From a virus, in IMG/VR virus record IMGVR_UViG_3300036770_005865, positions 1 to 51,710 of that record: a stretch of DNA of 51,710 nt. One strand, 5' to 3'. Below the pieces are notes generated by a model. That model saw nothing but the letters and a program-made list of their open reading frames with translations. It did no database searches and had not been told where the DNA came from. Shown piece after piece: positions 17,609-48,502 of the stretch; within the stretch, counting starts at the first letter, position 1, and each line of letters starts with the position of its first letter. The position numbers and the translations under genes were made by a program.

Positions 17609-18517
17609 TCAGATCAGGGAAAGGAACTCACTCCAGCTCGAGACGAGCCCATCAGCGAGGCGACGCTCGACGGCCTCGGGCCCGTTGAATGTCTGGCCTT
17701 GCATGGTCTCGTCGGCGACTTTGGGACGGGCCGCGGTGACGGCGGAGGTGAACCACCAATTGATCTGCTCGACGCGGGTCTGCAGCAGGGCGCGGTCCTC
17801 TTGGCTGAGAGCTTTACCGGGCAGGCCCATGCCTTTGTGTTTGCCCGCACCGAAGAACTCCAGACGCACGCCCTCGAGTTGCATCTTCACGGACTCATCG
17901 AGCCAGGCGAGGTAGGTGCCAATCGAGCCGATCGTGGCACTCGGGGTGGTGTAGAATTCGTCGGCCTGCGATCCGATCCAGTAGCCGGCGGAGCAGCACC
18001 GCTCATCGCTGAAGGCGTAGACGGTCTTGCCCTTCATCTTCGTGATGCTGCGCACCATGGCGCCGATCTCGGGGATGCCGGTCACCTGGCCGCCGGGGGT
18101 GGCGAGGTCGAGGATGAGGGTCTTCACTTCTTTCGCCGCGGCGGCCTGGGCGATGGCGTGCTGGATGCCGTTGATGTCGGTGATGCCTTGGCAGGCCTCC
18201 TCGATGAAGCCGGCGTTTTTTGCGAGGATGCCGTAGACGGGCACGACGGCGATCTCGGGGCGACCCTCGACGGTGGAGTAGAAGCGGCCATCAAGGATGC
18301 GGCCGGTCTCGTAATCGATCATGGGCCGGGCCTTGGCATTGCGGCGGCCACTGCCGGGATTCACGGTGGGCTTTTCGGCGGCCTGCACCTGGCCGAGCTC
18401 GGCCCCTTTGCCACCCATCACGCGGGGCAGGAAGGTGGCGTGGATAGAATGGAAGACGCCCTGCTCGATGCAGAGCGGCTCGCAGTAGATGGCGTTGAAA
18501 AGGAGCGGGTAGTTCAT
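17609..18517 (-). CDS. Prohead protease, S49 (lambda gpC / SppA) family
   Basis: 302 residues; the start overlaps the portal stop by 4 nt. The N-terminus (NYPLLFNAIYCEPLCIEQG) resembles that of gpC. The S49 fold follows: LILDLATPGGQVTG at ~134-147, catalytic Ser176 in CCSAGYW, and the general-base Lys in FFGAGKHKG near 226-228. These enzymes cut scaffold and portal during prohead maturation. Unlike lambda, the scaffold is a separate gene, two genes downstream. Confidence 0.85.
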   Translation of the reverse strand: MNYPLLFNAIYCEPLCIEQGVFHSIHATFLPRVMGGKGAELGQVQAAEKPTVNPGSGRRNAKARPMIDYETGRILDGRFYSTVEGRPEIAVVPVYGILAKNAGFIEEACQGITDINGIQHAIAQAAAAKEVKTLILDLATPGGQVTGIPEIGAMVRSITKMKGKTVYAFSDERCCSAGYWIGSQADEFYTTPSATIGSIGTYLAWLDESVKMQLEGVRLEFFGAGKHKGMGLPGKALSQEDRALLQTRVEQINWWFTSAVTAARPKVADETMQGQTFNGPEAVERRLADGLVSSWSEFLSLI

Positions 18518-20097
18518 GCGTCGTCTTCTTCAGGATCGGTGTCGTCCTCGTCGTCGGGATCGTCCTCGGGATCCTCGGTGTCGTCGGCATCGGGCTCGGG
18601 CTGGGCGCCGACATTGGTGCCGAAGAAGGCAGGCATGGCCTCGGCCATGGTGAGCCCGCGTTTCGCAGCGCCTTCCTTGATGTAGGCGCGCTCGTCGAGG
18701 TAGTCGTCGATCTCGGGCCGCCACTCTTCACCGCGCCAACCGTAGAGGGTGCGCAGGGTGATCATACCCTGTTTGTATTGCTCGATGTAGAGCTTGCCAT
18801 CGCGCCCGAAGTCGACGGTGAGGCGGGCGGGGGTGAGCCAGGTGTGAAGGAACCACTCGGGATGAAACTCGAGCTCGCCCTCGGCGATGGCGTCGGCGAT
18901 GTGGGCGAGGTAGACGGGGGCGGTGTAGGTCTCGACGAGGGTCTCCTGCAGCTCCTCGACGCGGCCCTGGGTGCCGGCCATCACGAAGCGGGTATTCGCC
19001 CCACCGAGTCCGGCGACATTGTAGAGGACCTCGGGGAAAAAGCCGGTGCCGAGGGAGACGTCGCGGACGAGGGCGTCGAGGTGGCCCGTCGTATTTTGAT
19101 GCGGGCGGCCATCGTGGACGATCTTCAGCCGTTGCCCGGGCTGTAGGCTTTCGATCTCGCCGCCTTCGGCGAGTTTCTCGAGGGTCACCTTCCGACCATT
19201 GGCCAGCTCGACGGTGGTCTGGGGGCGACGCGGGGCGAGGGCTCCAGGCTGCGGCCCTGGCGATCCGGCATCCGTCTCGATCGCGTAGCCGATCTGGGAG
19301 GAGAGCTTGATGCCCTTCGTCGTCGCCGCGAGGATCTCGCCGCGGTCGAGGATGCGGTTCACCGCATGGTAAAGGCAGCTCACCCCACGGGCCTGGCCGA
19401 TCCGCTCGAAGTCGGCGATGAAGAGGGAATCGCGGGCCGGGATGTCGACGTGGCTTTGCGTGCCATTCTCAGCGAGGGAGACCGTGCGGTAGCTGATCGC
19501 CCCGCGGTGGCGATCGAGTCGGACGCCATCGACGAGGCCCTTCGAATCAATCGAGCCATTGCCGATCTGGTTCCCCTCGTAGAGAGCGACGCGCAGCGCA
19601 TTCGTCTCGGTGCGGGCAAGGACGCCGAGGCAGTCGCCATCCTTCAGCATGGCGCGCATCACGGCGCGCTGCGAGGCGGGGAAGGAGTATTTCCGCCCGA
19701 GGTGGAAGACTTCGCGCGAGGCGGTGCGCCGGGCGAAGACGGCCTGGGCCTTGCGGTTCCACACCGGCGAGCTCGTCATCGGCTGCACCGCGAGACCGGT
19801 GCCGCAGACCATGCGGGCGATCCCATTGATGAGGCCTCGCACGTAGCCGATCCCGTTATACATCGCGCGGGTCCGCTTCATCAGCTCGATGCGGCTCCAC
19901 GAGTCGACCTCCTTCTCGCTCTCGAGGGTGGGAAAATAGACGTAGCCCCGGTCGCGCGACCACTCTGCCCCAGTGAACGATCCCATCATCGCGCTGGGCG
20001 TCAGGTCGCGCTCGGCGAGGGCCGGGGCGGCGAGAGGATTTTCGTTCGCACGTGCGAACGAAGGCGAAGATTGGCGGTTGCGGGCTCGGCGGGACAT
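18514..20097 (-). CDS. Portal protein, lambda gpB family
   Basis: 527 residues, ATG at 20097. Conserved blocks include NGIGYVRGLINGIARMVCGTGL at ~81-102, MLKDGDCLGVLARTE, the clip-like GGEIESLQPGQRLKIVHDGRPH and the tail-proximal GGANTRFVMAGTQGRVEELQE. The C-terminus is very acidic (about 30 Asp/Glu among the last 40 residues), as in several lambda-family portals. It forms the dodecameric ring through which DNA is packaged. The first codons contain one of the CACGTG palindromes (20041-20062). Confidence 0.9.
   Translation of the reverse strand: MSRRARNRQSSPSFARANENPLAAPALAERDLTPSAMMGSFTGAEWSRDRGYVYFPTLESEKEVDSWSRIELMKRTRAMYNGIGYVRGLINGIARMVCGTGLAVQPMTSSPVWNRKAQAVFARRTASREVFHLGRKYSFPASQRAVMRAMLKDGDCLGVLARTETNALRVALYEGNQIGNGSIDSKGLVDGVRLDRHRGAISYRTVSLAENGTQSHVDIPARDSLFIADFERIGQARGVSCLYHAVNRILDRGEILAATTKGIKLSSQIGYAIETDAGSPGPQPGALAPRRPQTTVELANGRKVTLEKLAEGGEIESLQPGQRLKIVHDGRPHQNTTGHLDALVRDVSLGTGFFPEVLYNVAGLGGANTRFVMAGTQGRVEELQETLVETYTAPVYLAHIADAIAEGELEFHPEWFLHTWLTPARLTVDFGRDGKLYIEQYKQGMITLRTLYGWRGEEWRPEIDDYLDERAYIKEGAAKRGLTMAEAMPAFFGTNVGAQPEPDADDTEDPEDDPDDEDDTDPEEDDA
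20041..20062. promoter_or_regulatory. CACGTG-centred palindrome, site 1 (22 bp, perfect)
   Basis: A perfect inverted repeat with core GTTCGCACGTGCGAAC, inside the first 20 codons of the portal gene. Related sites lie at 23641, 37162 and 37651. The core resembles bacterial parS, which also centres on CACGTG. Confidence 0.75.
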
Positions 20098-20103
20098 GGT
20101 CGT

Positions 20104-20421
20104 TTATCCCCAGACCGAGCGGCGCTCGCTGAAGTCGGCGTGAAGGTTGGATCCATCGGCGGAGCCACCGGTGCTGGCCTCGGCCTCGAGGGTTCGCAGG
20201 CAGATCTCCGTCACCTGCAAAAGCTGCTGGGCATCGAAGCGCCGCTCGATCGACGAGCTGCCCCCCTCAAATCCCGTCGCGATCACGAAGGTGTCGCCGG
20301 CGGCGAGGGCGGTCACGGCCTTGGCATTCAGTTGATGCAGCCATGTCGATGCCGGCACGGCCTGGAGCCGCGCCTGCCGGAGGAAGCCCGAGGCCAAGGT
20401 TTGTAGATCGACTGCCGCCAT
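20104..20421 (-). CDS. gpW-like head-tail joining protein
   Basis: 105 residues from ATG 20421 (MAAVDLQTLASGFLRQ); a TTG seven codons upstream is inside the TTTGACA box and less likely. The layout of an N-terminal helix, a beta turn (AGDTFVIATGFEGGSSSIERRFD) and a C-terminal helix (QQLLQVTEICLRTLEAEAS) fits gpW, which binds under the portal after packaging. It sits between TerL and portal, the gpW position in lambda. Confidence 0.7.
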   Translation of the reverse strand: MAAVDLQTLASGFLRQARLQAVPASTWLHQLNAKAVTALAAGDTFVIATGFEGGSSSIERRFDAQQLLQVTEICLRTLEAEASTGGSADGSNLHADFSERRSVWG

Positions 20422-20436
20422 CGAGGGCGGCCGGGG

Positions 20437-20443
20437 TGTCAAA
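20437..20443 (-). promoter_or_regulatory. TTTGACA late-gene box before the gpW-like gene
   Basis: TTTGACA on the minus strand, 15 nt upstream of ATG 20421 and directly downstream of the TerL stop at 20446. Confidence 0.5.
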
Positions 20444-20445
20444 CG

Positions 20446-22371
20446 TCACCCCGCCGGGGACGCGACAGGCGCCTCGACGTAGGGCAGGTCGGGGAGGTTC
20501 GCCAGATCCTCCTTGATCTCCTGGTAGATCACATACTGCTGCTTCATCACGTCGCCGAAGTCGTTCGGGCCGTGCTTCGCTTTGTCGTGCACCCACTTTT
20601 GCACGGGGCGACCGTTGATGATTTTCACGATGTTCTTTTCCGCGCGCAGCTCGGCACAGAATTCGGGGCTGATATTGGTGGGCAGCCACAGCCGGGGATC
20701 GCTGCGCTTCATCACTTTCCCGAAGTAGAAGTCGTTCTTGATCCGGTCGTCGTGGAATTTCCGGACGTAGAGGGATTGCTGGTCGCAGTAGTCCAGCCAG
20801 TAGTGCAGCGTCTTTCCCTGGAAGTCGCTCGTCCACCCGGATCCGCGCGAGGGATGCAGCTCCCAGCCGAGCGCCTGGGCGCGGAGGCAGAGACGGTAGA
20901 CGTCCATCGTCCAGTTCCCCGAATCGACCAGCCCGCTGAAGATGTAGGCAGGCTCGGCGAATCCCTCGATGTAATAGGGCCGCTCGCGCATCTGCAGCAG
21001 CTCGTCGTCATCGGCCACTTTCCCCGCATCGATCACGAAGGCCTGCCCGTCCGCCATCCACGCGACCACCCCGTATTTGTAGCAGTCCGCCTGCTTGTCG
21101 AAGGTAGCGGTCAGGAGCCTCGGCCGGAAGGGCAGCGGGGCATGCACCTCGCGCCCCACGTAGGCTGTCTCGTAGGCCCGACCGATCACCACTTTCCTCT
21201 CGGCCCGCTCCTCCACGATGCCGCCGCGCAGGGCAAGGATCACGTCCTCGTCGAGGCTCAGCTCCTTCGGATCCCACGGGAAGCCCTCGTGGTTCGTCCG
21301 GAAATACTTCTGCCGCGACTCGTTCGGCTCGATCACGTAGGCGGTCAGATACTCCTTCGCGAGGAAGCCCCACGAGACCGCCGGGAAGAGTGAATAGAAA
21401 TCCGAGATGTGGAAGCTCCTCACCCCGGGCTCGGGGGCGACGATGTTCCCGCTCGGCGGGCGTCTCCGTTTCTCGAGCGGGGTCGGGATCCACTCGCCGG
21501 CGTTCACCATCAACCGCTTCTCGCGCTCGTCGATCCGGCCGCCACACTCCTGGCACTGGTAGTAGGTCTCGTTCAGCACCCGCGAAAGGTCCCATCCCGC
21601 GGCCAGGTCTTTACAATGCGAGAAGGTAAGGAACGGCAGCAGCAGCTCGATCCGCTTTTCGCACCGCGGGCAGGGCACCATCCATTTCTCCTGCGTGCCG
21701 CGGATGTAGTTCAGATCGATGATCCCGCCGGCCAGCTCGGGCTTGCTCATCGCCACCAGCTTCCCGTCGGGCACCGTCGCCTGGCGCGATCTCGACCGAT
21801 CGTAGGTCGTCGTCTCCTGATCTTGCTGGTGATTCTCCAGCTCATCGAGCACGATCAGGCGATACCACGCCTCCATGAACGGACCGGCCGAGCCGGATCC
21901 GCTCACGATGATGTCCATGTTTTTCAGCGAGATCAGCAGCGTCGCCAGATCGTCGCGGCCCTCCGGCATCTGCGCCCCGGCCGTCGCCGCGAGCGTCGGC
22001 AGGATCCGCTTCTTCGAGACCTCCTTCGCCTTGTCCCGGCTGTTGATCGCGAAGAGCGCATTTCCCGGCCAGTGCAGCGGCATCCATCTCAGCACATTCA
22101 GCCAGGCCTCGGACGCACCCGAGCGGCTGCTCTTCATGATCACCACCTCGCGCGTCTCCGGCTGCAGCGGGATCAGGTGCCACTCCTTCGCCCAGGGCGT
22201 CGCCTCCGGATCATAATACATCGGCGTGGCCGACTGCTTCTCATCGAGCCAGACATTCTTTTTCGCCCACATCCACCCGGGCTCGGTCGGTGTCGGCTGA
22301 AAGCAGTCCGCCGCCAGATCCACCAGGAAGTCGCGCTCCGGCGTCCCGATCAATGGCAGTCCGAGGTCCAT
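20446..22371 (-). CDS. Terminase large subunit (lambda gpA family)
   Basis: 641 residues, ATG at 22371, overlapping the small subunit by 22 nt. The ATPase part has a variant Walker A (SSRSGASE, ~81-88), Walker B LIVLDE (~172-177) and coupling blocks. A Cys-pair segment (CPRCEKRIEL ... CQECGG) follows, then the nuclease part (LTATFDKQADCYKYGVV; FSGLVDSGNWT). It cuts concatemeric DNA and drives it into proheads through the portal. gpA-type enzymes usually cut at a fixed cos site, though none is recognised here. It is related only distantly to the phage B enzyme at 44598. Confidence 0.9.
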   Translation of the reverse strand: MDLGLPLIGTPERDFLVDLAADCFQPTPTEPGWMWAKKNVWLDEKQSATPMYYDPEATPWAKEWHLIPLQPETREVVIMKSSRSGASEAWLNVLRWMPLHWPGNALFAINSRDKAKEVSKKRILPTLAATAGAQMPEGRDDLATLLISLKNMDIIVSGSGSAGPFMEAWYRLIVLDELENHQQDQETTTYDRSRSRQATVPDGKLVAMSKPELAGGIIDLNYIRGTQEKWMVPCPRCEKRIELLLPFLTFSHCKDLAAGWDLSRVLNETYYQCQECGGRIDEREKRLMVNAGEWIPTPLEKRRRPPSGNIVAPEPGVRSFHISDFYSLFPAVSWGFLAKEYLTAYVIEPNESRQKYFRTNHEGFPWDPKELSLDEDVILALRGGIVEERAERKVVIGRAYETAYVGREVHAPLPFRPRLLTATFDKQADCYKYGVVAWMADGQAFVIDAGKVADDDELLQMRERPYYIEGFAEPAYIFSGLVDSGNWTMDVYRLCLRAQALGWELHPSRGSGWTSDFQGKTLHYWLDYCDQQSLYVRKFHDDRIKNDFYFGKVMKRSDPRLWLPTNISPEFCAELRAEKNIVKIINGRPVQKWVHDKAKHGPNDFGDVMKQQYVIYQEIKEDLANLPDLPYVEAPVASPAG

Positions 22372-29629: not shown

Positions 29630-29650
29630 TGCTTCCAGAGATTGCTACCA
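29630..29650 (+). repeat. attP arm repeat, copy 1 (21 bp)
   Basis: TGCTTCCAGAGATTGCTACC plus A, identical to 29851-29871. The two copies flank the tRNA-derived core, as arm-type integrase or Xis binding sites do. Confidence 0.8.
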
Positions 29651-29676
29651 AGCCCACGTAGTCACCGGCCCACAAT

Positions 29677-29721
29677 CTGGGGGTGTGGGGGTCGCTGGTT
29701 CGAATCCAGTCGTTCCGACCA
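29677..29721 (+). other. attP core: 3' half of a tRNA-Pro(GGG) gene
   Basis: Reads as an anticodon loop CTGGGGG (anticodon GGG), stem strand TGTGG, variable loop GGGTC, T arm GCTGG-TTCGAAT-CCAGT, acceptor strand CGTTCCG and ACCA. The matching 5' half (an acceptor CGGAACG) is not present upstream, so it is not a complete tRNA. Temperate phages carry such a piece to rebuild the host tRNA on integration. An internal attP with phage genes on both sides indicates a circular, unintegrated form. Confidence 0.85.
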
Positions 29722-29756
29722 CTTCTCGGCCTTATCGCAGTAGGGCCGGGAAGTGG
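29719..29756 (+). terminator. Hairpin directly after the tRNA fragment
   Basis: CCACTTCTCGGCC pairs with GGCCGGGAAGTGG (13 bp, one G-U), loop of 12 nt, followed by TTCT. It probably ends transcription of the rebuilt host tRNA-Pro after integration. Confidence 0.6.
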
Positions 29757-29850
29757 TTCTCCCTCCGAATTCGCAGCCCTTTTCGATGTGGAAAACCGGC
29801 ATGCTGAAAGGCCCGTTTTATCAGGGATTGTGCAATCCGTGGCTTGCGTT

Positions 29851-29871
29851 TGCTTCCAGAGATTGCTACCA
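29851..29871 (+). repeat. attP arm repeat, copy 2 (21 bp)
   Basis: Identical to 29630-29650 and ending eight nt before the integrase start codon, so integrase binding here could also control its own expression. Confidence 0.8.
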
Positions 29872-29879
29872 GAGCAGCC

Positions 29880-31010
29880 ATGAAACTGCGGGGCCTCTAC
29901 CGAAAGACCGATTCGGGCGTCTTCTACTACCAGCCACCGATGGCCAAGGGCGTGCGGCCTCGCCCCATCTCCCTGGGCACGAAGATCGAGGAGGAGGCCG
30001 TCGAGGCCTACTACGCCCTCCTCGCCGATGCGAGCGTCGCTTTCAAGAAAGGCACCTTGCGCATGGAGGGCGCCCGCTTCATCGCTGAGAAGCGCGAGGC
30101 GAAACTCCACCGCACCAGCAGTTCGCAGGAGACCGAGCGCGTCCTCGCGGCCGTAGTCGATCTGCTGGGAAATCGCGAGGTCTCCAGCTACACCCACGAG
30201 GACCTGCGGCGCGTCCACAAAGTCTGGCTGCAGCGAGGCCTCAGCTCGGCGACGATCTCCGCCTACCTCGCCCGCTTGCGTGCCTTCTTCACCTGGGCCG
30301 TGCACGAGCGCCTTACCAAGGAGAATCCCATCACCGGCATCAAGATGCCGCGCGATCTGCCGACCCGATCCGAGCGGTATTGCACGAAGGAGGAGCGCGA
30401 TCGACTGATCACCACCGTGCCCGAGGGGCGTCAGGATCTCGCCCTGGTGATGTGGCTCGGCTTCTTTGCCGGCCTGCGCCGGCGCGAGATCGATCAGGCC
30501 CGCCGCGATTGGATCGACCTCGAGGCCGGAGTGATCCACGTGAAGATCACGCCCACCTTCGCGCCGAAGAGCTCGCGAGGCGTGCGCGCCATCCGCATCT
30601 CTCCACGGCTCCATACCTTCCTCAGCGCCTACCTCGAGGCCCCCATGCGCCCCCGGAAGAAGGGGCAGGGAAAGGAGGTGGCTCAGGCCCCCGTGCCGCT
30701 GCCCGCTCTGCAGCCCCACGATTACCTCGTGCGTCCCGATCGGAAGCCCGGCCGCAAGGTGAAGACCCGCGGCAAAAAGGAGAATCGCTACCGCTACGAC
30801 GCGCGCCGACCCTTCCGCGAGCATGCCACCGCCCAGGGCCTGCCTTGGGTGGCCTTCCACACCATGCGCCATACCTTCGCGACTCTGCATGCCCTCGCCG
30901 GCACGCCGATGACGACGCTGGCAAAAGAACTCGGCGACGAGGTCGAGACCGTCTTTCGGCATTACGTGGGTTATCAGAGGGAGGACACTCATTCGGCGGC
31001 GGTGGATTAA
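29880..31010 (+). CDS. int: Tyrosine site-specific integrase (lambda Int class)
   Basis: 376 residues from ATG 29880; an ATG 36 nt upstream is in frame but overlaps the arm repeat. The N-terminal ~60 residues form an arm-binding-like basic domain, a SAM-like core-binding domain lies at ~62-155 and the catalytic domain follows. Active residues are Arg200 (FFAGLRRREI), His327 and Arg330 (FHTMRHTFAT) and Tyr362 (FRHYVGY). The usual second His of LGH is Asp (LGDEVET). An unusual insertion at ~255-310 is very basic. It integrates the phage at host tRNA-Pro(GGG). It converges on the second recombinase with a 4-nt gap. Confidence 0.9.
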   Translation: MKLRGLYRKTDSGVFYYQPPMAKGVRPRPISLGTKIEEEAVEAYYALLADASVAFKKGTLRMEGARFIAEKREAKLHRTSSSQETERVLAAVVDLLGNREVSSYTHEDLRRVHKVWLQRGLSSATISAYLARLRAFFTWAVHERLTKENPITGIKMPRDLPTRSERYCTKEERDRLITTVPEGRQDLALVMWLGFFAGLRRREIDQARRDWIDLEAGVIHVKITPTFAPKSSRGVRAIRISPRLHTFLSAYLEAPMRPRKKGQGKEVAQAPVPLPALQPHDYLVRPDRKPGRKVKTRGKKENRYRYDARRPFREHATAQGLPWVAFHTMRHTFATLHALAGTPMTTLAKELGDEVETVFRHYVGYQREDTHSAAVD

Positions 31011-31014
31011 TGAA

Positions 31015-32004
31015 TCAGGCGACGATCGAGAGCATTTCGAACGGACTCGGCACCCGCTCGGCATCTGGCCGCACGTATCGGGCGGTCGTCTCGATATTCT
31101 TGTGGCCCAGCACTTCCTGCAGATCGCGCATGTGAGCGCCATCCTCGTGAGCGTGCGTCGCCCAAGCATGCCGGAGGCAATGTGGGGTGATGCCCTCGGT
31201 GCCGGCGCGGCGATTGGCCGTCCGCATGGCGCGGCGAACCGTCGATGGCAGGCAATGCCACCAGACCCTGGCTTTTCCGCGAGGATCAATGCAGGGCTGG
31301 CACTGCGGGAAAAGCCAGAACCAGCGCCGCTGAAAGGCCGACTGGGGATTCTTCTTTGCGTAGAGGTGGGGCAGCTTCACCGGCACCCCTTCCATCACCG
31401 CCCTCTTCTGGATCGCCTCGGCAGCCTTCACCTGCTGAGTCAGCCTAGGAATGATTGACGCGGGCAGATTAATGAAACGGTCCTGCTTACCCTTCCCGCC
31501 GATGATCACCAACTTGCCCGAGGCGAGATCCAGGTCCTTCAGGCGGATCGAGAGGGTCTCCGTGACACGAAGCCCGCAGGCGTAAAGCAGGTGGCAGATC
31601 AGTCGAGTCGGATAACCACTTGCATCTGCGACCGCCATCAGGATTTTCCCAGTGTCCTCGCGGCTGGGGGATTGTCGCTTGTGCTCCCCTGTTTTTGAGC
31701 GGAGAGCGTCCACATTCTGCAGCGGAGTTTTTCGCACCTCTCGATAGTAGAAAAGGATCGCGTGAAATTTTGCATTTTGTGTCGATGCCGCCGCACCATC
31801 GCGAGCCACCTGCGTCAGAAATGTCTCGACCTTCTCCTCGGTGCTCGTGCAGGGACGCCACTTCGTATCGCAGATGAAATCAATGAACTTCGAGACCGCG
31901 GGGAGGTAGGATCGCTCCGTTTCGAGCGAATAGCCTTTCGCGCGGATTTTGTCCGCCAGCTTCGTCAGTTCTTGCTCTTTTTGAGCGAGTTGCTTCTCAT
32001 TCAT
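31015..32004 (-). CDS. Integron-type (IntI-like) tyrosine recombinase
   Basis: 329 residues. ATG 32004 overlaps the upstream stop. The catalytic set is complete: Arg146 (YACGLRVTETL), Lys171 (GGKGKQDR), His275 and Arg278 (TPHCLRHAWATH), His301 (LGHKNIETT), Tyr310. Between Lys and His it carries the extra segment known from integron integrases (~219-250): NPQSAFQRRWFWLFPQ, then DPRGKARVW, where IntI has the FP...DPR pattern, and a C-terminal RVPSPFE resembling the IntI end. That segment lets IntI grip folded single-stranded attC sites. No cassette array is seen. It is last in a coupled early operon with an Xis-like gene, so a phage-specific use is likely. Confidence 0.8.
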   Translation of the reverse strand: MNEKQLAQKEQELTKLADKIRAKGYSLETERSYLPAVSKFIDFICDTKWRPCTSTEEKVETFLTQVARDGAAASTQNAKFHAILFYYREVRKTPLQNVDALRSKTGEHKRQSPSREDTGKILMAVADASGYPTRLICHLLYACGLRVTETLSIRLKDLDLASGKLVIIGGKGKQDRFINLPASIIPRLTQQVKAAEAIQKRAVMEGVPVKLPHLYAKKNPQSAFQRRWFWLFPQCQPCIDPRGKARVWWHCLPSTVRRAMRTANRRAGTEGITPHCLRHAWATHAHEDGAHMRDLQEVLGHKNIETTARYVRPDAERVPSPFEMLSIVA

Positions 32005-32417
32005 GGCTTTGAATTATCGTCACCCCCGTGACGTGAATAAGTGTTCTGCCCATGAACCCGACGAACCGAGCACGGCTTGCAGCAGGTCATGAATCCGTTG
32101 TCGAGCGGCCCACCGCAGACGGTGCATTGAGCAGGATCGAGATGGAGACTGCAGCCGCGAACACTCACTCCAGCCTTTCGGAGCGCGAGGCCGAGTTGAT
32201 AGGCCATCCATTCAGCATCGCACGCGGAGTTCGCCTCGTAGTCGAGGAGGAACGATTGATTGTCGATTTTAAGCTCCACTTTCGAGACGCTTTTCGGGCC
32301 GCAGAGCAGATGGAACCAATGCGGTCGATCTTCCGTGACGACGCGCAAGAAGGCAGAACAAGGCACTGGAGCGGAACCGGCTACCGCTCCTTCGTTGGAT
32401 TCAACAGGGTCATTCAT
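32001..32417 (-). CDS. Small Cys-rich protein coupled to the IntI-like recombinase
   Basis: 138 residues, ATG at 32417. The N-terminal part has strands around HWFHLLCGPKSVSKVELKIDNQSFLLDYEANS. The C-terminus has a zinc-ribbon-like set of cysteines (CTVCGGPLDNGFMTCCKPC). It overlaps its upstream neighbour and, by 4 nt, the recombinase gene. A role as DNA-binding partner of the recombinase is possible but not shown. Confidence 0.55.
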   Translation of the reverse strand: MNDPVESNEGAVAGSAPVPCSAFLRVVTEDRPHWFHLLCGPKSVSKVELKIDNQSFLLDYEANSACDAEWMAYQLGLALRKAGVSVRGCSLHLDPAQCTVCGGPLDNGFMTCCKPCSVRRVHGQNTYSRHGGDDNSKP

Positions 32418-32766
32418 AAGTCTTTACAGGGTTCAAGGGTCCGCTCTCAGCCGGTCCCTCAGTTTGGGTGTTCTTTCGTTTCGCGCGCTGGCGGGCACCC
32501 CACTCATCGTGAAGTCCGCCCCAGATCGCGACGAGCGGCTCGTCGTCGCCCGTAATCGCATAAAGCGGAAAAGGACCGCCATCACAGGCCATCCCATCGA
32601 TGAGGACCAAGATGCTGAAAATCACGCCCTCGACCTTTCCCAGCGTCTCCGGCACACGATCTTCGGCCATCCAATAATCACGGATCCGCTCCAAGTTCTC
32701 GATGAACTCCACTTGTAGCTCCTTCGGAGACTTCTGCGGCGCAGCGCCTTCTTCGAGACTGATCAT
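32410..32766 (-). CDS. Small phage protein, helical, unknown function
   Basis: 118 residues from ATG 32766, which overlaps the stop of the Xis-like gene (TAATG). The core, PETLGKVEGVIFSILVLIDG, resembles a small family often found in phage early operons (K.EG..FSIL..LDG), of unknown function. The basic tail (ARQRAKRKNTQ) may be disordered. It is coupled to the Cys-rich gene. Confidence 0.55.
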   Translation of the reverse strand: MISLEEGAAPQKSPKELQVEFIENLERIRDYWMAEDRVPETLGKVEGVIFSILVLIDGMACDGGPFPLYAITGDDEPLVAIWGGLHDEWGARQRAKRKNTQTEGPAESGPLNPVKTYE

Positions 32767-32990
32767 TAGATTGCTCCTCCCTTCGACTGCTGCCCTTGCT
32801 CCGCCCGCTTCATCGCTTCCTCGATTGCCGAGACGCGGTATCGCTTGCTGGTCGCCTTGCGATCCCAGGGCACGAGGCCCCAGTGTTTCTCCAGTTCGCG
32901 CAGGGCCTCGAGGCCGCCAACGTAGATCGCCGCCTCGCGCTGCTGTAGCGAGCCGACCGGAGTGGTTTCGATTTTGAGGAGGCTGCTCAT
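32766..32990 (-). CDS. Excisionase-like winged-helix protein
   Basis: 74 residues from ATG 32990, overlapping the J-protein stop (ATGA). The sequence REAAIYVGG.EALRELEKHWGLVPW...KRYRVSAIEEAMKRAEQ follows the MerR/Xis small winged-helix layout: helix-turn-helix, wing with KRYR, last helix. Such proteins bend att DNA to set recombination direction, or act as regulators. Its place three genes before the IntI-like gene and near int makes recombination control likely. Confidence 0.65.
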   Translation of the reverse strand: MSSLLKIETTPVGSLQQREAAIYVGGLEALRELEKHWGLVPWDRKATSKRYRVSAIEEAMKRAEQGQQSKGGAI

Positions 32991-33661
32991 GATTCGGCGG
33001 TGAAATAAGGGATCGACTGATACTGAGCCCAGAAATCGACACTCATCCGGCGGCTCACATTCTCCGCCGGCCGCGCATCCTGGTATCGATCGCAGCACAC
33101 CAGCGCGTCGCTGTAGGTGCCCAGATCACGGCGGAGGCCTTCGATGCCGATCGTGATGTCGGCCTTTACCGCGAGGAGGCGGCTCTCGATGTAGTTCTCG
33201 CCCTCGATCGGGCGCAGGGTCGCGGGATCTTCCGCGAGCCGGTAGCGGCCGAGCTGCTTCTCGACTTTCGCCAGGGCGGCTTCCATCGCGTTGATCGCTT
33301 CCTCCGTCTTGCGCTTCGCGCGGCCGAGGGCTCGCTTCACCGTTTCGGCGATGTTCACCGTCCGCTCGCTGTGATCCGAGAGCATGCCTTGCAGCACCTC
33401 ATCGAGCGCCTGGAGAAAGCGCGCCTCGCCGGGGCTCATCGTCGTGGCCGCGCCGGCGATCTCGCCCGTCTCATCGTAGCGACGGCGCTTTTCCGGATCC
33501 CCCAGCGTCTCCCAGGCGGCATTGATCGCCTGCAGATCCTCGTCGTTGCCGCCCTTGTCGGGATGCGCCGCCGCGGCCCGCTTGCGGTAGGCGGCCTTGA
33601 TGTCGCGCGGCTTCGCATCGCGAGGTACACCGAGGGTGTCGTAGAGGTCGGGCGTTTTCAT
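32987..33661 (-). CDS. DnaJ-like J-domain protein
   Basis: 224 residues from ATG 33661, overlapping the clamp stop by 4 nt. Residues 1-65 are a full J domain: YDTLGVPRDAKPRDIKAAYRKRAAAAHPDKGG with the HPD motif, then NAAWETLGDPEKRRRYDE. The rest is helical with a coiled-coil stretch (KRKTEEAINAMEAALAKVEKQLG) and no Cys zinc centre. It should deliver a substrate to host DnaK, perhaps to remodel replication complexes. Confidence 0.9.
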   Translation of the reverse strand: MKTPDLYDTLGVPRDAKPRDIKAAYRKRAAAAHPDKGGNDEDLQAINAAWETLGDPEKRRRYDETGEIAGAATTMSPGEARFLQALDEVLQGMLSDHSERTVNIAETVKRALGRAKRKTEEAINAMEAALAKVEKQLGRYRLAEDPATLRPIEGENYIESRLLAVKADITIGIEGLRRDLGTYSDALVCCDRYQDARPAENVSRRMSVDFWAQYQSIPYFTAES

Positions 33662-34785
33662 TGTGCCAATCGCATCGGCATCAGCACGCCGAGGAAGTCT
33701 TCGTTTTCTTCGATGATCTTCAGCGGACCGAGGACCACTCCCTTGTTGTGATCGCTCGTCTCCGGCTCGCATTCGAGCGTGAAGTAGTCGCCGCCCTCGC
33801 GGTTCACCATCTGCTCGAGGTAGGTGATGTTCAGCGCCACCCGCATCTCGCCAGAGTCGCGCACCGTGGGCAGCACCTCCTCCGCCTCGCCGATCTCGGG
33901 CGAAAAGACCTCGATCGTCAGGTGGCCGTCGCGGGCCGTCAGCTTTGCGCTCGTGTCCTTCGAGGTGCGGTAGAGCTTCGCCCAGGCGAGCGCCTTCTGC
34001 ATGGCGAGGCGCTCCACCGAGACCCGGACCGGGCGGTGAAAATTCGGGATCACCTGCTTGAAATTCGGGTAGCTGCCCTCGATCACCTTCGTGAAGTAGC
34101 TCTCGCCCTGGGCGCGGAAGCAGATCCCGCTCGCATCGCCGGCCACCTCCACTCGGGGATGCCGCTCGAGCAGGTCCGCGATCGGAGCCAGAGACTTGTT
34201 TGGCACGATCACCCCGGCGAGCACCGGGATCGGATCCGCGTCCGTGTAGCGCACCTGGGCGAGACGACGTCCATCTGTCGCCACTGTCAGGCCATCGCCC
34301 GAGAGATACATCCCGTTCAGCACGTAGCGGGTCTCCTCCGTGCTCGTGGCAAAGGCGATGCCCCGGATCGCTGCGGCGAGGCGCGCGCCCTCCAGCGACA
34401 CCCATCCGTCGAAGTCCGGGTGCGTCGCGGGAAATTCCACCAGGGGCAGGACATTCATCGAGGCCTTGCGACCGCCCGCCACGATCGTGAGATGGCCGCC
34501 GGCGATCGTCACCCGGGCGCCGTCGCCATTGCAGCGGGCGAGCAGACTGGTCAGCAGGCCGGCCGCGGCACAGGCCCCGGGTCCGGCGCTCTCGATCGAG
34601 ACGGGCAGCGCGATGCTGTGTTGCACATCGAGGTCCGTGCCCTTGGCGATCAGTTGCCCGTCGATCAGCTCGAGCGCGTAGCACGAGAGGATGGGCAGGG
34701 TCGAGTTTTTGCCGATCGAGGCGGAGAGATGGCCGAGGGCGGCCGCGATCTCCTTGCCGTCTCCGGTAAAGGTGAGCTGGCTCAT
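33658..34785 (-). CDS. dnaN: DNA polymerase III beta sliding clamp, phage-encoded
   Basis: 375 residues from ATG 34785, overlapping the upstream stop (ATGA). Three clamp domains are visible: MSQLTFTGDGKEIAAALGHLSASIGKNST (~1-29), the middle domain with LSGDGLTVATDGRRLAQVRY, and the C-terminal domain ending VLMPMRLAQ, the typical MPMRL end that helps form the partner-binding pocket. It rings DNA and tethers polymerases. The gene is of bacterial type and embedded in the phage early operon; it could replace or redirect the host clamp during replication. Confidence 0.9.
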   Translation of the reverse strand: MSQLTFTGDGKEIAAALGHLSASIGKNSTLPILSCYALELIDGQLIAKGTDLDVQHSIALPVSIESAGPGACAAAGLLTSLLARCNGDGARVTIAGGHLTIVAGGRKASMNVLPLVEFPATHPDFDGWVSLEGARLAAAIRGIAFATSTEETRYVLNGMYLSGDGLTVATDGRRLAQVRYTDADPIPVLAGVIVPNKSLAPIADLLERHPRVEVAGDASGICFRAQGESYFTKVIEGSYPNFKQVIPNFHRPVRVSVERLAMQKALAWAKLYRTSKDTSAKLTARDGHLTIEVFSPEIGEAEEVLPTVRDSGEMRVALNITYLEQMVNREGGDYFTLECEPETSDHNKGVVLGPLKIIEENEDFLGVLMPMRLAQ

Positions 34786-35105
34786 GCGGCGGCGGCTCCT
34801 TTCTCCTTCAGCTCGGCGAGCTCGGTCTCGAGGTCCGCGATGCGGATCTTCAATCGATCGTTGTCGTATTCGAGATTGCGACACTCCTTCTCGTGCCACT
34901 CGGCGTTGCTTCGGGATTCGGCCCGACCTTGCTCGGCGACACTGAGGTCTTCCTCGAGCATTTCGTAATCATGGAGGGGGCGGCCCTGCCACGAGTCCGC
35001 GATCTCGAAGCCCTTGTCGGCCCGGACGCTGGGGTGAAGGGTTGCGAGAGTGATCGATCCATCGTCGCTCTCGATCGTGTGTTTCGCTGCGTTGTATTTG
35101 GCCAT
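34782..35105 (-). CDS. Small coiled-coil protein next to the clamp gene
   Basis: 107 residues from ATG 35105. A beta start (MAKYNAAKHTIESDDGSITLATL) is followed by a charged coiled coil (CRNLEYDNDRLKIRIADLETELAELKEKG). It is coupled to the clamp gene by a 4-nt overlap. No family was recognised. Confidence 0.55.
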   Translation of the reverse strand: MAKYNAAKHTIESDDGSITLATLHPSVRADKGFEIADSWQGRPLHDYEMLEEDLSVAEQGRAESRSNAEWHEKECRNLEYDNDRLKIRIADLETELAELKEKGAAAA

Positions 35106-44597: not shown

Positions 44598-46481
44598 ATG
44601 ACTGAGGCGGCACTAGATCGGTATTTCAGAGGCACCAGGCGGCACCTTGAGCGGGCGTTTCGTTTCCAGCGCACCATGACCGCGCCCGAGTGGTCGGAAA
44701 AGGTCCGGCGAATGGAGGGCGGTAGGCGCTTTCGGTTCGACTTCGCGCCCTACCAGCGGGAGATGATGGAAACGCCGTATGACCCGCGCGTCCAAATGAC
44801 GGTTTACATGCTCGCCTCGCGGATGGGCAAAACTGAGGTGGTAATGAACCAGATCGGGCACAGCATTTCCGAGAATCCTCGGCGTGTCCTCGTCATGTAT
44901 CCGACGATCAGCCAGACCGAGAAATGGTCCAAGGAAACGCTCATGGGCGAGCTTGTGAATCCCACGCCTGACCTTGCCGCTCTGATTGGCGACGACTCGG
45001 GGAGGCGGAAAACTGGAAACACAATTCTGCACAAGCTTTATCCTGGCGGATTGGTAAACGCGTTCGGCTCCAACGCCCCAGGCGAGATGCGCCGCGCCAA
45101 GGGGAATTTCCTGTTCGCTGATGAAATCGACGCAATCGAATCGACCGAATCGGACGAAGGCGACCCGCTTGAGATTTTCTGGGTTCGCGGCTCAGAATAT
45201 TCCGACACGATCAAGATTGCGGCATCTTATCCGAGCGTGAAGGGAAAGAGCAAGATTGAGGCGCTGATGCTCCAGAGCGATTGGCGAGTCTGGATGGCAC
45301 CATGCCCTCATTGCGGGAAGGAGTTTGTGCTGCACCGTCGCCAACTTCGCTATGACCGCGACAAGCCGGAAAACGCGTGGATTGAATGCCCGGAAAGCGA
45401 GTGCCGAATCTCCGACGCTGAACGTATGGAGATGATCCGAAACGGGCATTGGAAAGCAACCAGACCGTTTCAAGGCATCGCCGGGTTTCACGGCTCGCGC
45501 ATGATGTCGCCGCATCCTCCTCAAAAGGGCTTTGCAAGCCACCTGCATTGGGCGGCGGTCGAGGAATTGAAGATTGAGGCGGCAGACAACCGTGAGAAGG
45601 CAAAGCGCGTCTTGATAAATACCTTTGACGCCGAGACTTACCAAGCGCCCGAGGAGGAAAAGCCCGATCCGGTTGGCCTCGCTCAGGAGGCTTACGACTA
45701 CCTTGAGCGCGTGACCGAAAATCAGCTAAAGGTTCCGGCTGGCGTTCTGGTCGTCACGGGAGGCGGTGACGTTCAAGGCGACCGCATCGAGTTTGAATTT
45801 GTCGGGCATGGTTGCAACGGGCAAACATGGGGATTGGGCTATCACGTCCTATCTGGCAACACGCTTGAGCCGGAAGTCTGGCAGAAACTCGACGCGCTCC
45901 TTCAATCGGAGTTTCTTCACCCCTGCGGGAAGGTGTTGCGGCCCGCCTCCGTTTTCATTGATTCCAAATACCGCCAAGCTCAGGTCTTGGGTTTCACAAA
46001 GCCGCGCCAAGCTCGAGGGGTTTTTGCCATCTTCGGATCGACGACGCTGGGCAAGCCGATTGTCGCGCAACCGAAACGCGAGAAGCGTGGGACTTTTTAT
46101 GAGATTGGCACCCATGAGGCAAAGAGCATGATCTACCAAAACGCCGCGCTTCGTTACGACAAGCGAAGCTCTGAGTTTCCGCACAACTACATGCACTTTC
46201 CGAGCGGGCACGGCTATACGGTCGAATATTTCCAGCGGCTACTGATTGAGGACGTGTCGCTAAAGAAAGGGCAGGACGGAAGCTTTTATGAGTTTTTCGA
46301 GAAGCGAGACAAGCGCGACCGGAACGAACCTCTCGACGTTCGCGTCTACAACATCGCCGCCGCTAAGAAATTGGATATTGCATTTGCCAAAATTGCCAAG
46401 AAATACTCTGAATATGCGGCGAAAGATGAGCCAAATAGGGGCAAAGAGCGGGAATATACGCTCAATTTTGTGGAGGAATAG
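44598..46481 (+). CDS. Terminase large subunit of phage B (gpA family)
   Basis: 627 residues, ATG at 44598. Walker A ASRMGKT (~73-79), Walker B FLFADE (~171-176). A zinc-binding pair CPHC / CPESEC follows (~236-269), then nuclease acidic residues in GGGDVQGDRIEFEFVG and SVFIDSKYR. It belongs to the gpA family like the phage A enzyme but is clearly distinct in sequence, so the window carries two separate packaging motors. Confidence 0.9.
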   Translation: MTEAALDRYFRGTRRHLERAFRFQRTMTAPEWSEKVRRMEGGRRFRFDFAPYQREMMETPYDPRVQMTVYMLASRMGKTEVVMNQIGHSISENPRRVLVMYPTISQTEKWSKETLMGELVNPTPDLAALIGDDSGRRKTGNTILHKLYPGGLVNAFGSNAPGEMRRAKGNFLFADEIDAIESTESDEGDPLEIFWVRGSEYSDTIKIAASYPSVKGKSKIEALMLQSDWRVWMAPCPHCGKEFVLHRRQLRYDRDKPENAWIECPESECRISDAERMEMIRNGHWKATRPFQGIAGFHGSRMMSPHPPQKGFASHLHWAAVEELKIEAADNREKAKRVLINTFDAETYQAPEEEKPDPVGLAQEAYDYLERVTENQLKVPAGVLVVTGGGDVQGDRIEFEFVGHGCNGQTWGLGYHVLSGNTLEPEVWQKLDALLQSEFLHPCGKVLRPASVFIDSKYRQAQVLGFTKPRQARGVFAIFGSTTLGKPIVAQPKREKRGTFYEIGTHEAKSMIYQNAALRYDKRSSEFPHNYMHFPSGHGYTVEYFQRLLIEDVSLKKGQDGSFYEFFEKRDKRDRNEPLDVRVYNIAAAKKLDIAFAKIAKKYSEYAAKDEPNRGKEREYTLNFVEE

Positions 46482-46492
46482 GCAAAAGCGCC

Positions 46493-46517
46493 TTGAAATC
46501 GGGCTTTATTTTGTAGA
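46493..46517 (+). promoter_or_regulatory. Phage B promoter-like element, copy 3
   Basis: TTGAAAT, 8 nt, then ATTTTGTAGA, nine nt before ATG 46527. It gives the gpW-portal pair its own start apart from TerL. Confidence 0.7.
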
Positions 46518-46526
46518 TGCCTTCGC

Positions 46527-47063
46527 ATGGCCTCACTTCCGTCCCGAGCTTACTGCGGCGAATCGCTGGAATTTACCGCTACCGTAACGGCGGGCGCTAC
46601 CGGCTCCGCTCATTTTCGGCATATTGATTCCGGCGAGGTGGTCACCGTGGCACTATCGGTTTCAAGCACGACGGCGACCGCGACCTTTCCGCCCGAGAAA
46701 ACCGCGAACCTGCTGGCCGGGATTTACATCGTCGCCTTGACACTTGAGATTGACGGAGACCGCTCCGTGGAATCGGTCGGCAAGATCACGCTGCAAGCCC
46801 CGCCTGATCGCGCTCCATTGCCAAGTCACGCGCGGAAGATGGTGAAGGCGCTAGAGGCCCACCTCGAGGGGCGCATTTCAGACGATGAAGGGCGAGGACT
46901 TGAAACCTACACGGTCGGGGGCGTGCCGATCACTAAGATTTCCCTCATGGACGCGCGGGAGCTTTTGACCAAATACCGCCGCGACCTCGACACCGAGATC
47001 GCCAAAGCCCGCGCCGACGCTGGACTTTCCAACGGTCGAACCATTTACGCTCAATTTGAATGA
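46527..47063 (+). CDS. gpW-like protein with N-terminal Ig-like domain (phage B)
   Basis: 178 residues, ATG at 46527. Residues ~1-95 form a beta sandwich pattern (SLEFTATVTAGATGSAHF, LAGIYIVALTLEIDGDRS). The C-terminal ~80 residues resemble gpW-type joining proteins (TYTVGGVPITKISLMDARELLTKYRRDLDTEIAKA). The fusion to a beta domain is unusual. Its stop overlaps the portal ATG by 4 nt, fitting a head-tail joining role. Confidence 0.6.
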   Translation: MASLPSRAYCGESLEFTATVTAGATGSAHFRHIDSGEVVTVALSVSSTTATATFPPEKTANLLAGIYIVALTLEIDGDRSVESVGKITLQAPPDRAPLPSHARKMVKALEAHLEGRISDDEGRGLETYTVGGVPITKISLMDARELLTKYRRDLDTEIAKARADAGLSNGRTIYAQFE

Positions 47064-48502
47064 AACCCCTCCTTTACGGTCCCGACAACAAGCCAATTCG
47101 TGTTCGCAACTTTGACGCGGCGAAAGGCTCCCGCTATACCGCCGACTGGGTCACGGGAACAGGTCCAGCCGATCAAGCGATCAAGCAGGATGCCAAGTCC
47201 TTGCGCGACCGTGCGCGGGATTCTGAAAGGAATGATGGTTACATCGAAGGCGCTCTAATGGCCCTTGAATCCAACGTGATCGGACAACACGGGATCAGGA
47301 TGAAAAGCCTTGCTCGCCGCGCGGACGCTCGCAGCAAGAAGGGCTTGTCCAATTCGCCCGACAATGACGCGCGAGCCAAAATCGAAGCGGCATGGGAAGA
47401 GTTTTCTAAACGCGGGAACTTCGATGTCACGCGGCAATTCTCGCGGGCGGCTTATGAGAGGATCGCCCTTCGCTCTGCCGTTCGGGATGGCGGCTTTCTC
47501 ACCCGCACCGTTGACGGTTTCCCTAAAAACGATTTCCGATTTGCCGCGCAGGGCATCGAGATTGATGCGCTCGACCCGCATCACCGTGACGACGTTCGCC
47601 GCGTCTATATGGGCGTGGAGTTTGACGATTGGGATGAGCCGGTTCGGTATCACCTGCGCAAAACAGACCCCAAGAGCGGCAGATACACGCGCGAGACGTT
47701 CGCGGTTGATGGGCAAAGCATGATTCACACCTTCCTTGCTCGTCGCATCGGGCAGAGTCAAGGATACTCGTGGTTGGCCAACGCGCTCCTTCGATTGCGG
47801 CACCTTGCCAAGTTTGAGGAGGCGGAAGTCATCGCCGCGCGGATCTCTGCCAACAAGCTGGGCTTTTTCAAGCAGACCGGCGAATCACAATACACCGGCG
47901 ACGAGGACGACGAAGGCAAGGCAATTGCCCCGAGCGCTCCTGGCACGTTTGAGACGCTCCCGCATGGCGTCGAGGCGCAAATGATCGACCCGGCGCATCC
48001 AAATAGCGCCATGCCCGATTTCCGCAAAGCAATCCTGCGCGGCGTGAGTCCCGGCATCTACGTCAATTACAACACCTGGGCGCAAGACCTTGAGGGCGTG
48101 TCTTACTCGTCTATCCGTCAAGGCGTCCTGTCAGAACGCGACATTTACAAGATCCTGCATAGCTGGTTCATCGACACGTTTGAGGTTCCGCTTTTTGAGC
48201 GCTGGCTACGGATGGCGCTCCTTGTCGGCAAGATCGAGGGGTATACGCTTTTGGATTATGACCGCCTGTCTCACGTTGAGTTCAGCGGACGCACTTGGAC
48301 TTGGGTTGATCCGGTCGGCGATATTGAAGCAATCGAGCGCGAAATTGCTCTTTGCCTCAACTCTCGCGAACGGGCGGCAAAGGATCGCGGCTTGAACATC
48401 GACAAGATCATTGCCGAAAACGAGGCGGATAACGCCAAGTTGGAAGCGGCGGGACTGCCAACGGCGATCGGGAAGCAGGTTCAAGCCCCGCCCGCGCCGT
48501 GA
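47060..48502 (+). CDS. Portal protein of phage B (lambda gpB family)
   Basis: 480 residues. Blocks shared with the family include DSERNDGYIEGALMALESNVIG, RTVDGFPKNDF, FALQG-like IEIDALDP, SMIHTFLARRIGQSQG, GVSPGIYVNYNTWAQDLEGVSYSSIRQG (a classic gpB block) and GRTWTWVDPVGDIEA. The N-terminus is basic. The stop is directly followed, without a gap, by the stop of the opposite-strand TerS gene. Confidence 0.9.
   Translation: MKPLLYGPDNKPIRVRNFDAAKGSRYTADWVTGTGPADQAIKQDAKSLRDRARDSERNDGYIEGALMALESNVIGQHGIRMKSLARRADARSKKGLSNSPDNDARAKIEAAWEEFSKRGNFDVTRQFSRAAYERIALRSAVRDGGFLTRTVDGFPKNDFRFAAQGIEIDALDPHHRDDVRRVYMGVEFDDWDEPVRYHLRKTDPKSGRYTRETFAVDGQSMIHTFLARRIGQSQGYSWLANALLRLRHLAKFEEAEVIAARISANKLGFFKQTGESQYTGDEDDEGKAIAPSAPGTFETLPHGVEAQMIDPAHPNSAMPDFRKAILRGVSPGIYVNYNTWAQDLEGVSYSSIRQGVLSERDIYKILHSWFIDTFEVPLFERWLRMALLVGKIEGYTLLDYDRLSHVEFSGRTWTWVDPVGDIEAIEREIALCLNSRERAAKDRGLNIDKIIAENEADNAKLEAAGLPTAIGKQVQAPPAP

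Follow-up and report, generated by a model that had tools for sequence, protein, structure and literature searches.

Integrons are bacterial gene-capture devices, and to our knowledge the phage integrase genes of integron type described so far are fragments of host integrons. The locus studied here raises the question of what such an enzyme might be doing in the early operon of a phage. The window, by which we mean the whole stretch of 51,710 nucleotides analysed (IMG/VR record IMGVR_UViG_3300036770_005865), carries an intI-like gene at 31015–32004 (-), in which the first-pass annotation had recognized the recombination residues and the extra segment of integron integrases. From the analyses described below we propose that this gene very probably encodes the integrase of a phage-resident integron, belonging to a virus-specific branch of IntI, whose array is down to one cassette.

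The reading frame is intact and specifies a protein of 329 amino acids. Alignment revealed all six catalytic residues (R146, K171, H275, R278, H301 and Y310) together with the extra segment (LPHLYAKKNP...WFWLFP...DPRG; about residues 212–250, LPHLYAKKNPQSAFQRRWFWLFPQCQPCIDPRGKARVWWH, encoded at 31255–31371 (-)), so that both features noted at the outset are present. The segment can be aligned column by column to those of IntI1 and VchIntIA, with invariant K218 and W228, and with P241. Among the NCBIfam models the top match was TIGR02249, integron integrase (221 bits), the XerC/XerD models scoring 109–114. Counting against the assignment, the protein and many members of its clade miss the curated TIGR02249 cut-off of 265 bits, which 18 of 44 relative records pass; this cut-off guards naming and is not a biological feature. 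In a PDB sequence search the top match was VchIntIA/IntI4 (2A3V), nearly full length and including the extra segment. Modelling of the structure, as had been suggested, gave an AlphaFold prediction (mean pLDDT 91) nearest to 2A3V (TM 0.73–0.81) and well ahead of the Xer structures (about 0.36–0.53). The PHROG search also returned a broad match to phrog_1, which is outweighed by the IntI model, the structure and the tree, and we therefore regard the protein as an IntI and not as an ordinary phage integrase.

Relatives were collected with codon patterns on the extra segment, which recovered about 165 IntI-like genes on viral contigs, where a scan with one protein as query had found distant matches only. 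Trees built with and without the insert columns split all IntI-like genes from XerC/D with a support of 100, and in both of them the clade of the window integrase (support 99–100) is nested among IntI on a long stem. According to the first-pass annotation, the outcome to speak against it would have been a tree that grouped the protein with XerC/D or with ordinary phage families lacking the IntI segment; it falls within IntI even when the insert columns are removed. The clade comprises 32 rows, of which 28 are viral contigs (window included): the first tree held 27 viral contigs besides the window, as well as three contigs of Verrucomicrobiota MAGs, and a later tree added genome G194. Most of the carriers are metagenomic contigs, and among GenBank phage records no close member of the clade was found, the best matches being about 35% identical. 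Identity between the integrases of the clade and bacterial IntI is about 30–34%. A survey of 289 Verrucomicrobiota genomes revealed IntI at E <= 1e-60 in 77, only G002 (479 bits) and G194 (345 bits) exceeding the ordinary 200–300 bits. In G194 the clade integrase (L387, 17599–18528) lies near the end of a 700-kb Verrucomicrobiota contig, next to ParA/ParB-like genes and a transposase-like ORF, and may belong to a prophage or to a chromosomal integron. A second viral branch of IntI-like genes (support 99; L005 at 4680–5678, L044, L100 and L104) is made up of Virus Rctr41k, three IMG/VR contigs and one Chloroflexota contig.

The residues of IntI1 that contact attC are K156, R168, K219, Y220, W229, P242, H250 and H251 (PMC3053210). 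In IntI1 numbering, the window integrase keeps K156, K219, W229, P242 and H251, and has I at 168, N at 220 and W at 250. Across the clade the catalytic residues are conserved in 31/31 aligned rows, as are K219 and W229, with K156 and P242 in 28/31 each; the column of W229 is a gap in 13/13 Xer rows. Two departures count against reading the locus as a phage integron. Y220 and R168, the contacts of G20'', are lost in the window and in one relative (L041), and H250, part of the T12'' pocket, is replaced by W or Y (one F) throughout the clade, which suggests that this pocket has been altered.

The carriers appear to be phages. Terminase or portal genes of several families were located on seven of ten tested carrier contigs, which, apart from some head genes, have little in common with the window. 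The integrase resides mostly in early or replication regions, its neighbours being helicases, replication genes and methyltransferases, and the early-operon location first assigned to the window gene is supported. On most carriers no other tyrosine recombinase is present, and there are hardly any serine recombinases. In G029 the integrase gene overlaps the 5' end of a gene resembling a terminase by eye, whose only match is a weak one to an unnamed PHROG. We consider the carriers to be tailed phages whose host is probably among the Verrucomicrobiota.

An attC scanner trained solely on sites from other loci found 36 attC-like sites at a score of at least 33 in 338 kb around the clade genes, that is, 10.6 per 100 kb as against 0.39 in shuffled sequences and 0.2 at viral loci without IntI. 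Of the confident sites, 21/22 are oriented opposite to intI, which is the classical layout. Within the arrays, the R' box of each site is complementary to the R'' box of the next, in chains of up to six cassettes, a pattern that we read as the footprint of successive cassette insertions. A strict chain test, in which a GTT box 15–75 nt upstream of intI must have a complement that opens an attC-like hairpin 100–800 nt further on, was passed by 18/30 clade loci, where 0.11 were expected and the mirrored control gave 0. The other genes of eight contigs (array genes included) passed in 11/300 cases and other IntI loci in 24/149; the roughly 12 of 30 clade loci that fail count against a phage integron.

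Immediately upstream of intI, the relatives share an attI flank with the consensus AATCACT followed by GTT. Mean conservation is 1.06 bits before the GTT box and 0.22 after it (permutation maximum 0.34). Since the flank is conserved and the cassette side variable, the border between attI and cassette is placed at GTT; conservation of the flank had played no part in the selection of the loci. The cassette genes, taken as the longest ORF, lie on the intI strand in 24/30 cases, often starting in or right at attC. They mostly face the opposite way to the classical orientation, and this too was counted against a phage integron. The triplet CAT occurs in 20/28 attC loops (11.8 expected, shuffle maximum 22), and from 15/28 loops a frame is open over half of the cassette, which lends moderate support, and no more, to the proposal that the start codon lies in the loop.

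Comparison of related carriers points to past movement of these cassettes. Two clade loci (L010 and L023) are 87.6% identical in nucleotide sequence over intI and attI, and their homology stops exactly at the attI GTT. The dN/dS of this pair is 0.058; by this measure the clade integrase is under purifying selection. A 254-nt cassette is present twice in G022 (99.6% identity) and one of 368 nt twice in G049 (100% identity), in both cases with GTT boxes at both ends. Furthermore, L010 shares a 499-nt methyltransferase cassette (91% identity), beginning exactly at GTTCGGC, with L074, a locus whose IntI-like gene is not placed in the clade. On sequence grounds, then, cassettes have moved at GTT boxes in the relatives. 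The cargo with known domains comprises cytosine-C5 and Dam-type methyltransferases, a PAPS-reductase-like protein and an HNH protein.

How much of this anatomy is retained in the window? An attI-like site (32005–32049 (+)) adjoins intI, with a core box GTTCTGC at 32043–32049, 38 nt from the intI start, and a border of GAATAAGT followed by GTT. Its flank, GTGAATAAGT, is identical in L041 save for the last base; the attI of that relative, which precedes a chain of two cassettes, has the 38-nt spacing and the flank GTGAATAAG as in the window. A strict scan for attC, demanding canonical and mutually complementary R'' and R' boxes, located no site in the window. This miss is misleading, since cassette insertion mixes R' boxes, and the chain test was used instead. 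The box GTTCTGC at 32043 is perfectly complementary to an R'' box, GCAGAAC, at 32353, which opens a putative attC-like site of 48 nt (32353–32400 (+); R'' 32353–32359, R' GTTGGAT 32394–32400) with a perfect 7-bp stem (GGAGCGG 32368–32374 and CCGCTCC 32384–32390). Chains with a stem score of at least 7 arose in 6/3000 shuffles, and with a score of at least 5 in 29/3000, corresponding to p of about 0.002–0.01. The site is shorter than those of the relatives, shows no clear bulged base and, as a further point against it, folds only modestly better than shuffles.

From the box complementarity, the predicted cassette would measure 351 nt (32044–32394), between presumed G/TT crossovers at 32043 and 32394. 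Further along the plus strand of the window the partner ATCCAAC was found nowhere except at 47269, and the array would thus consist of this single cassette, which takes in nearly the whole of a Cys-rich ORF (CxxC...CCxxC; 138 aa, 32001–32417 (-)), its first and last codons falling just outside. The ORF overlaps intI (32001–32004) and a small early gene upstream (32410–32766 (-); overlap at 32410–32417) by ATGA, confirming the translational coupling between integrase and Cys-rich protein that had been noted earlier. Given an attI-like core and an attC with a complementary R'' box, we interpret this coupled ORF as the cassette gene. Profile and relative searches revealed neither a family nor a relative for its product; a gene of Virus Rctr41k (Rctr41k_10) was considered as a homolog and rejected, the sequences being unrelated. 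The earlier description of a phage version without cassettes is not borne out by the attC arrays of the relatives and by the attI-like core and single candidate attC of the window. The search for attC-like sites, likewise proposed at the start, gave clear arrays in the relatives and one weak 48-nt candidate here. This candidate is the weakest link in our reading: membership of the enzyme is firm, while the function of the array is what we infer.

The remaining genes of this region complete the picture of the early module. Upstream of the small early gene is a 74-aa gene (32766–32990 (-)) previously labelled winged-helix and Xis-like, a label that rested on resemblance and found no backing in the profile search. 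Upstream of the cassette, the early operon also includes a DNA polymerase III beta clamp (33658–34899) with three Pfam domains, beside a DnaJ-like ORF. The separate, ordinary integrase reported in the first-pass annotation was verified at 29844–31010 (+) by a profile match to phrog_1; it is convergent to intI and lies outside the integron. To its left, a perfect 21-nt direct repeat (TGCTTCCAGAGATTGCTACCA, copies 221 nt apart) brackets a tRNA-3'-end-like sequence (about 29690–29730), and this region (29630–29871) is probably the att region of the ordinary integrase. The window contains two terminase/portal sets, one of the phrog_15/phrog_21 type (18514–22371 (-)) and a different one of the lambda gpA type with Phage_portal_2 (44598–48502 (+)), and its G+C content falls from about 0.64 to 0.57 near 43.6 kb. 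The contig may thus represent two adjacent prophages or a chimera.

Several other explanations have to be weighed against a phage-resident integron. Perhaps the enzyme is of phage IntI lineage but relict or repurposed in the window, the array having been lost, the 48-nt site being decayed or a chance occurrence, and the enzyme now having another task, such as dimer resolution, at sites in double-stranded DNA. The short, weak attC, the presence of one cassette only and the disappearance of Y220 and R168 from the integrases of the window and L041 all agree with this; we nonetheless think it unlikely, since the ORF is intact with every catalytic residue kept, the spacing and flank of attI match those of L041 with its two-cassette chain, and the window's own chain departs from shuffles (p 0.002–0.01). 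Among the roles suggested initially (dimer resolution, action on ssDNA intermediates, gene capture), gene capture is the best supported, dimer resolution having no positive evidence.

That the gene is a recent passenger, a fragment of a host-chromosome integron acquired by chance, has a precedent in phages of Vibrio anguillarum (Qi et al. 2023, PMC9892861) and would be helped by the frequency of IntI in Verrucomicrobiota chromosomes (77/289). Such an origin is highly improbable for a deep clade of nearly all viral rows on a long stem, to the level of which only 2/289 Verrucomicrobiota genomes rise, and which is found under purifying selection in phages with differing terminase families and early modules. 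We attach the least probability to a lysogenic integrase of IntI ancestry acting on attP and attB: its position as sole tyrosine recombinase on many carriers, with serine recombinases nearly absent, would suit this role, yet a standard integrase is already present in the window, the clade genes are found in early operons with attI and attC arrays next to them, and the duplication of cassettes at GTT boxes would not be expected from lysogenic integration.

For the phage-resident integron that we favour, the following course may be envisaged. During early replication, single-stranded phage DNA would let attC fold, and the attI just upstream of the intI start codon would receive the folded single-stranded attC of small cassettes. 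The integrase, if catalytically active, would join cassette to attI at G/TT, as bacterial integrons do, so that cassettes could be inserted, duplicated and exchanged inside the early operon; this operon would transcribe the cassette and then intI. For the window, this supposes that its short attC may still be in working order. More broadly, it seems reasonably probable that the clade is a long-lived integron lineage of tailed phages, kept in the early module by strong purifying selection, in which cassettes are captured, duplicated and exchanged between phages via single-stranded attC. The cargo would be methyltransferases, HNH proteins and small zinc-ribbon proteins, and the cassette gene would be reversed relative to attC, which would act as its 5' leader, with transcription running from the phage operon into intI.

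With bacterial integrons (IntI1 of class 1; VchIntIA/IntI4) the clade shares the fold and extra segment, the catalytic residues and K219/W229/P242, as well as an attI beside intI, the R''/L''/L'/R' boxes, exchange at G/TT and the orientation of attC. Unlike them, it has W or Y for H250, occurs in phage early operons and carries its cassette genes mostly on the intI strand. XerC/XerD share the tyrosine recombinase core only, lack the insert and branch apart with full support. Phages have been described with host-derived integrons and with arrays that have no integrase (CALINs; Qi et al. 2023, PMC9892861); these have in common with the present loci attC cassettes, methyltransferase cargo and, in some records, intI. 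Their intI genes are fragments of host or class 1 integrons, whereas here we find a separate phage lineage with its own attI. Virus Rctr41k (KX853513) and L044/L100/L104 are a further phage case in which the IntI-like gene overlaps the early gene upstream of it, but Rctr41k belongs to the second viral branch, close to other IntI (support 99), and no attC was found in the 11.6 kb of it that were read. Canonical attC sites were also seen near IntI-like genes outside the window's clade on five viral contigs (L144, L146, L161, L181 and L202), and phage integrons may thus extend beyond this clade.

A dedicated phage lineage of IntI in early modules was encountered neither in the open-access journal literature nor in 50,697 phage records. 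If phages do have an IntI lineage to themselves, complete with attI and cassette arrays, they would own a cassette-swapping system, which would account for methyltransferases and other small early genes moving between unrelated phages. The clade also supplies many new sets of IntI, attI and attC, with which the single-strand reaction becomes testable where H250 is replaced by W or Y.
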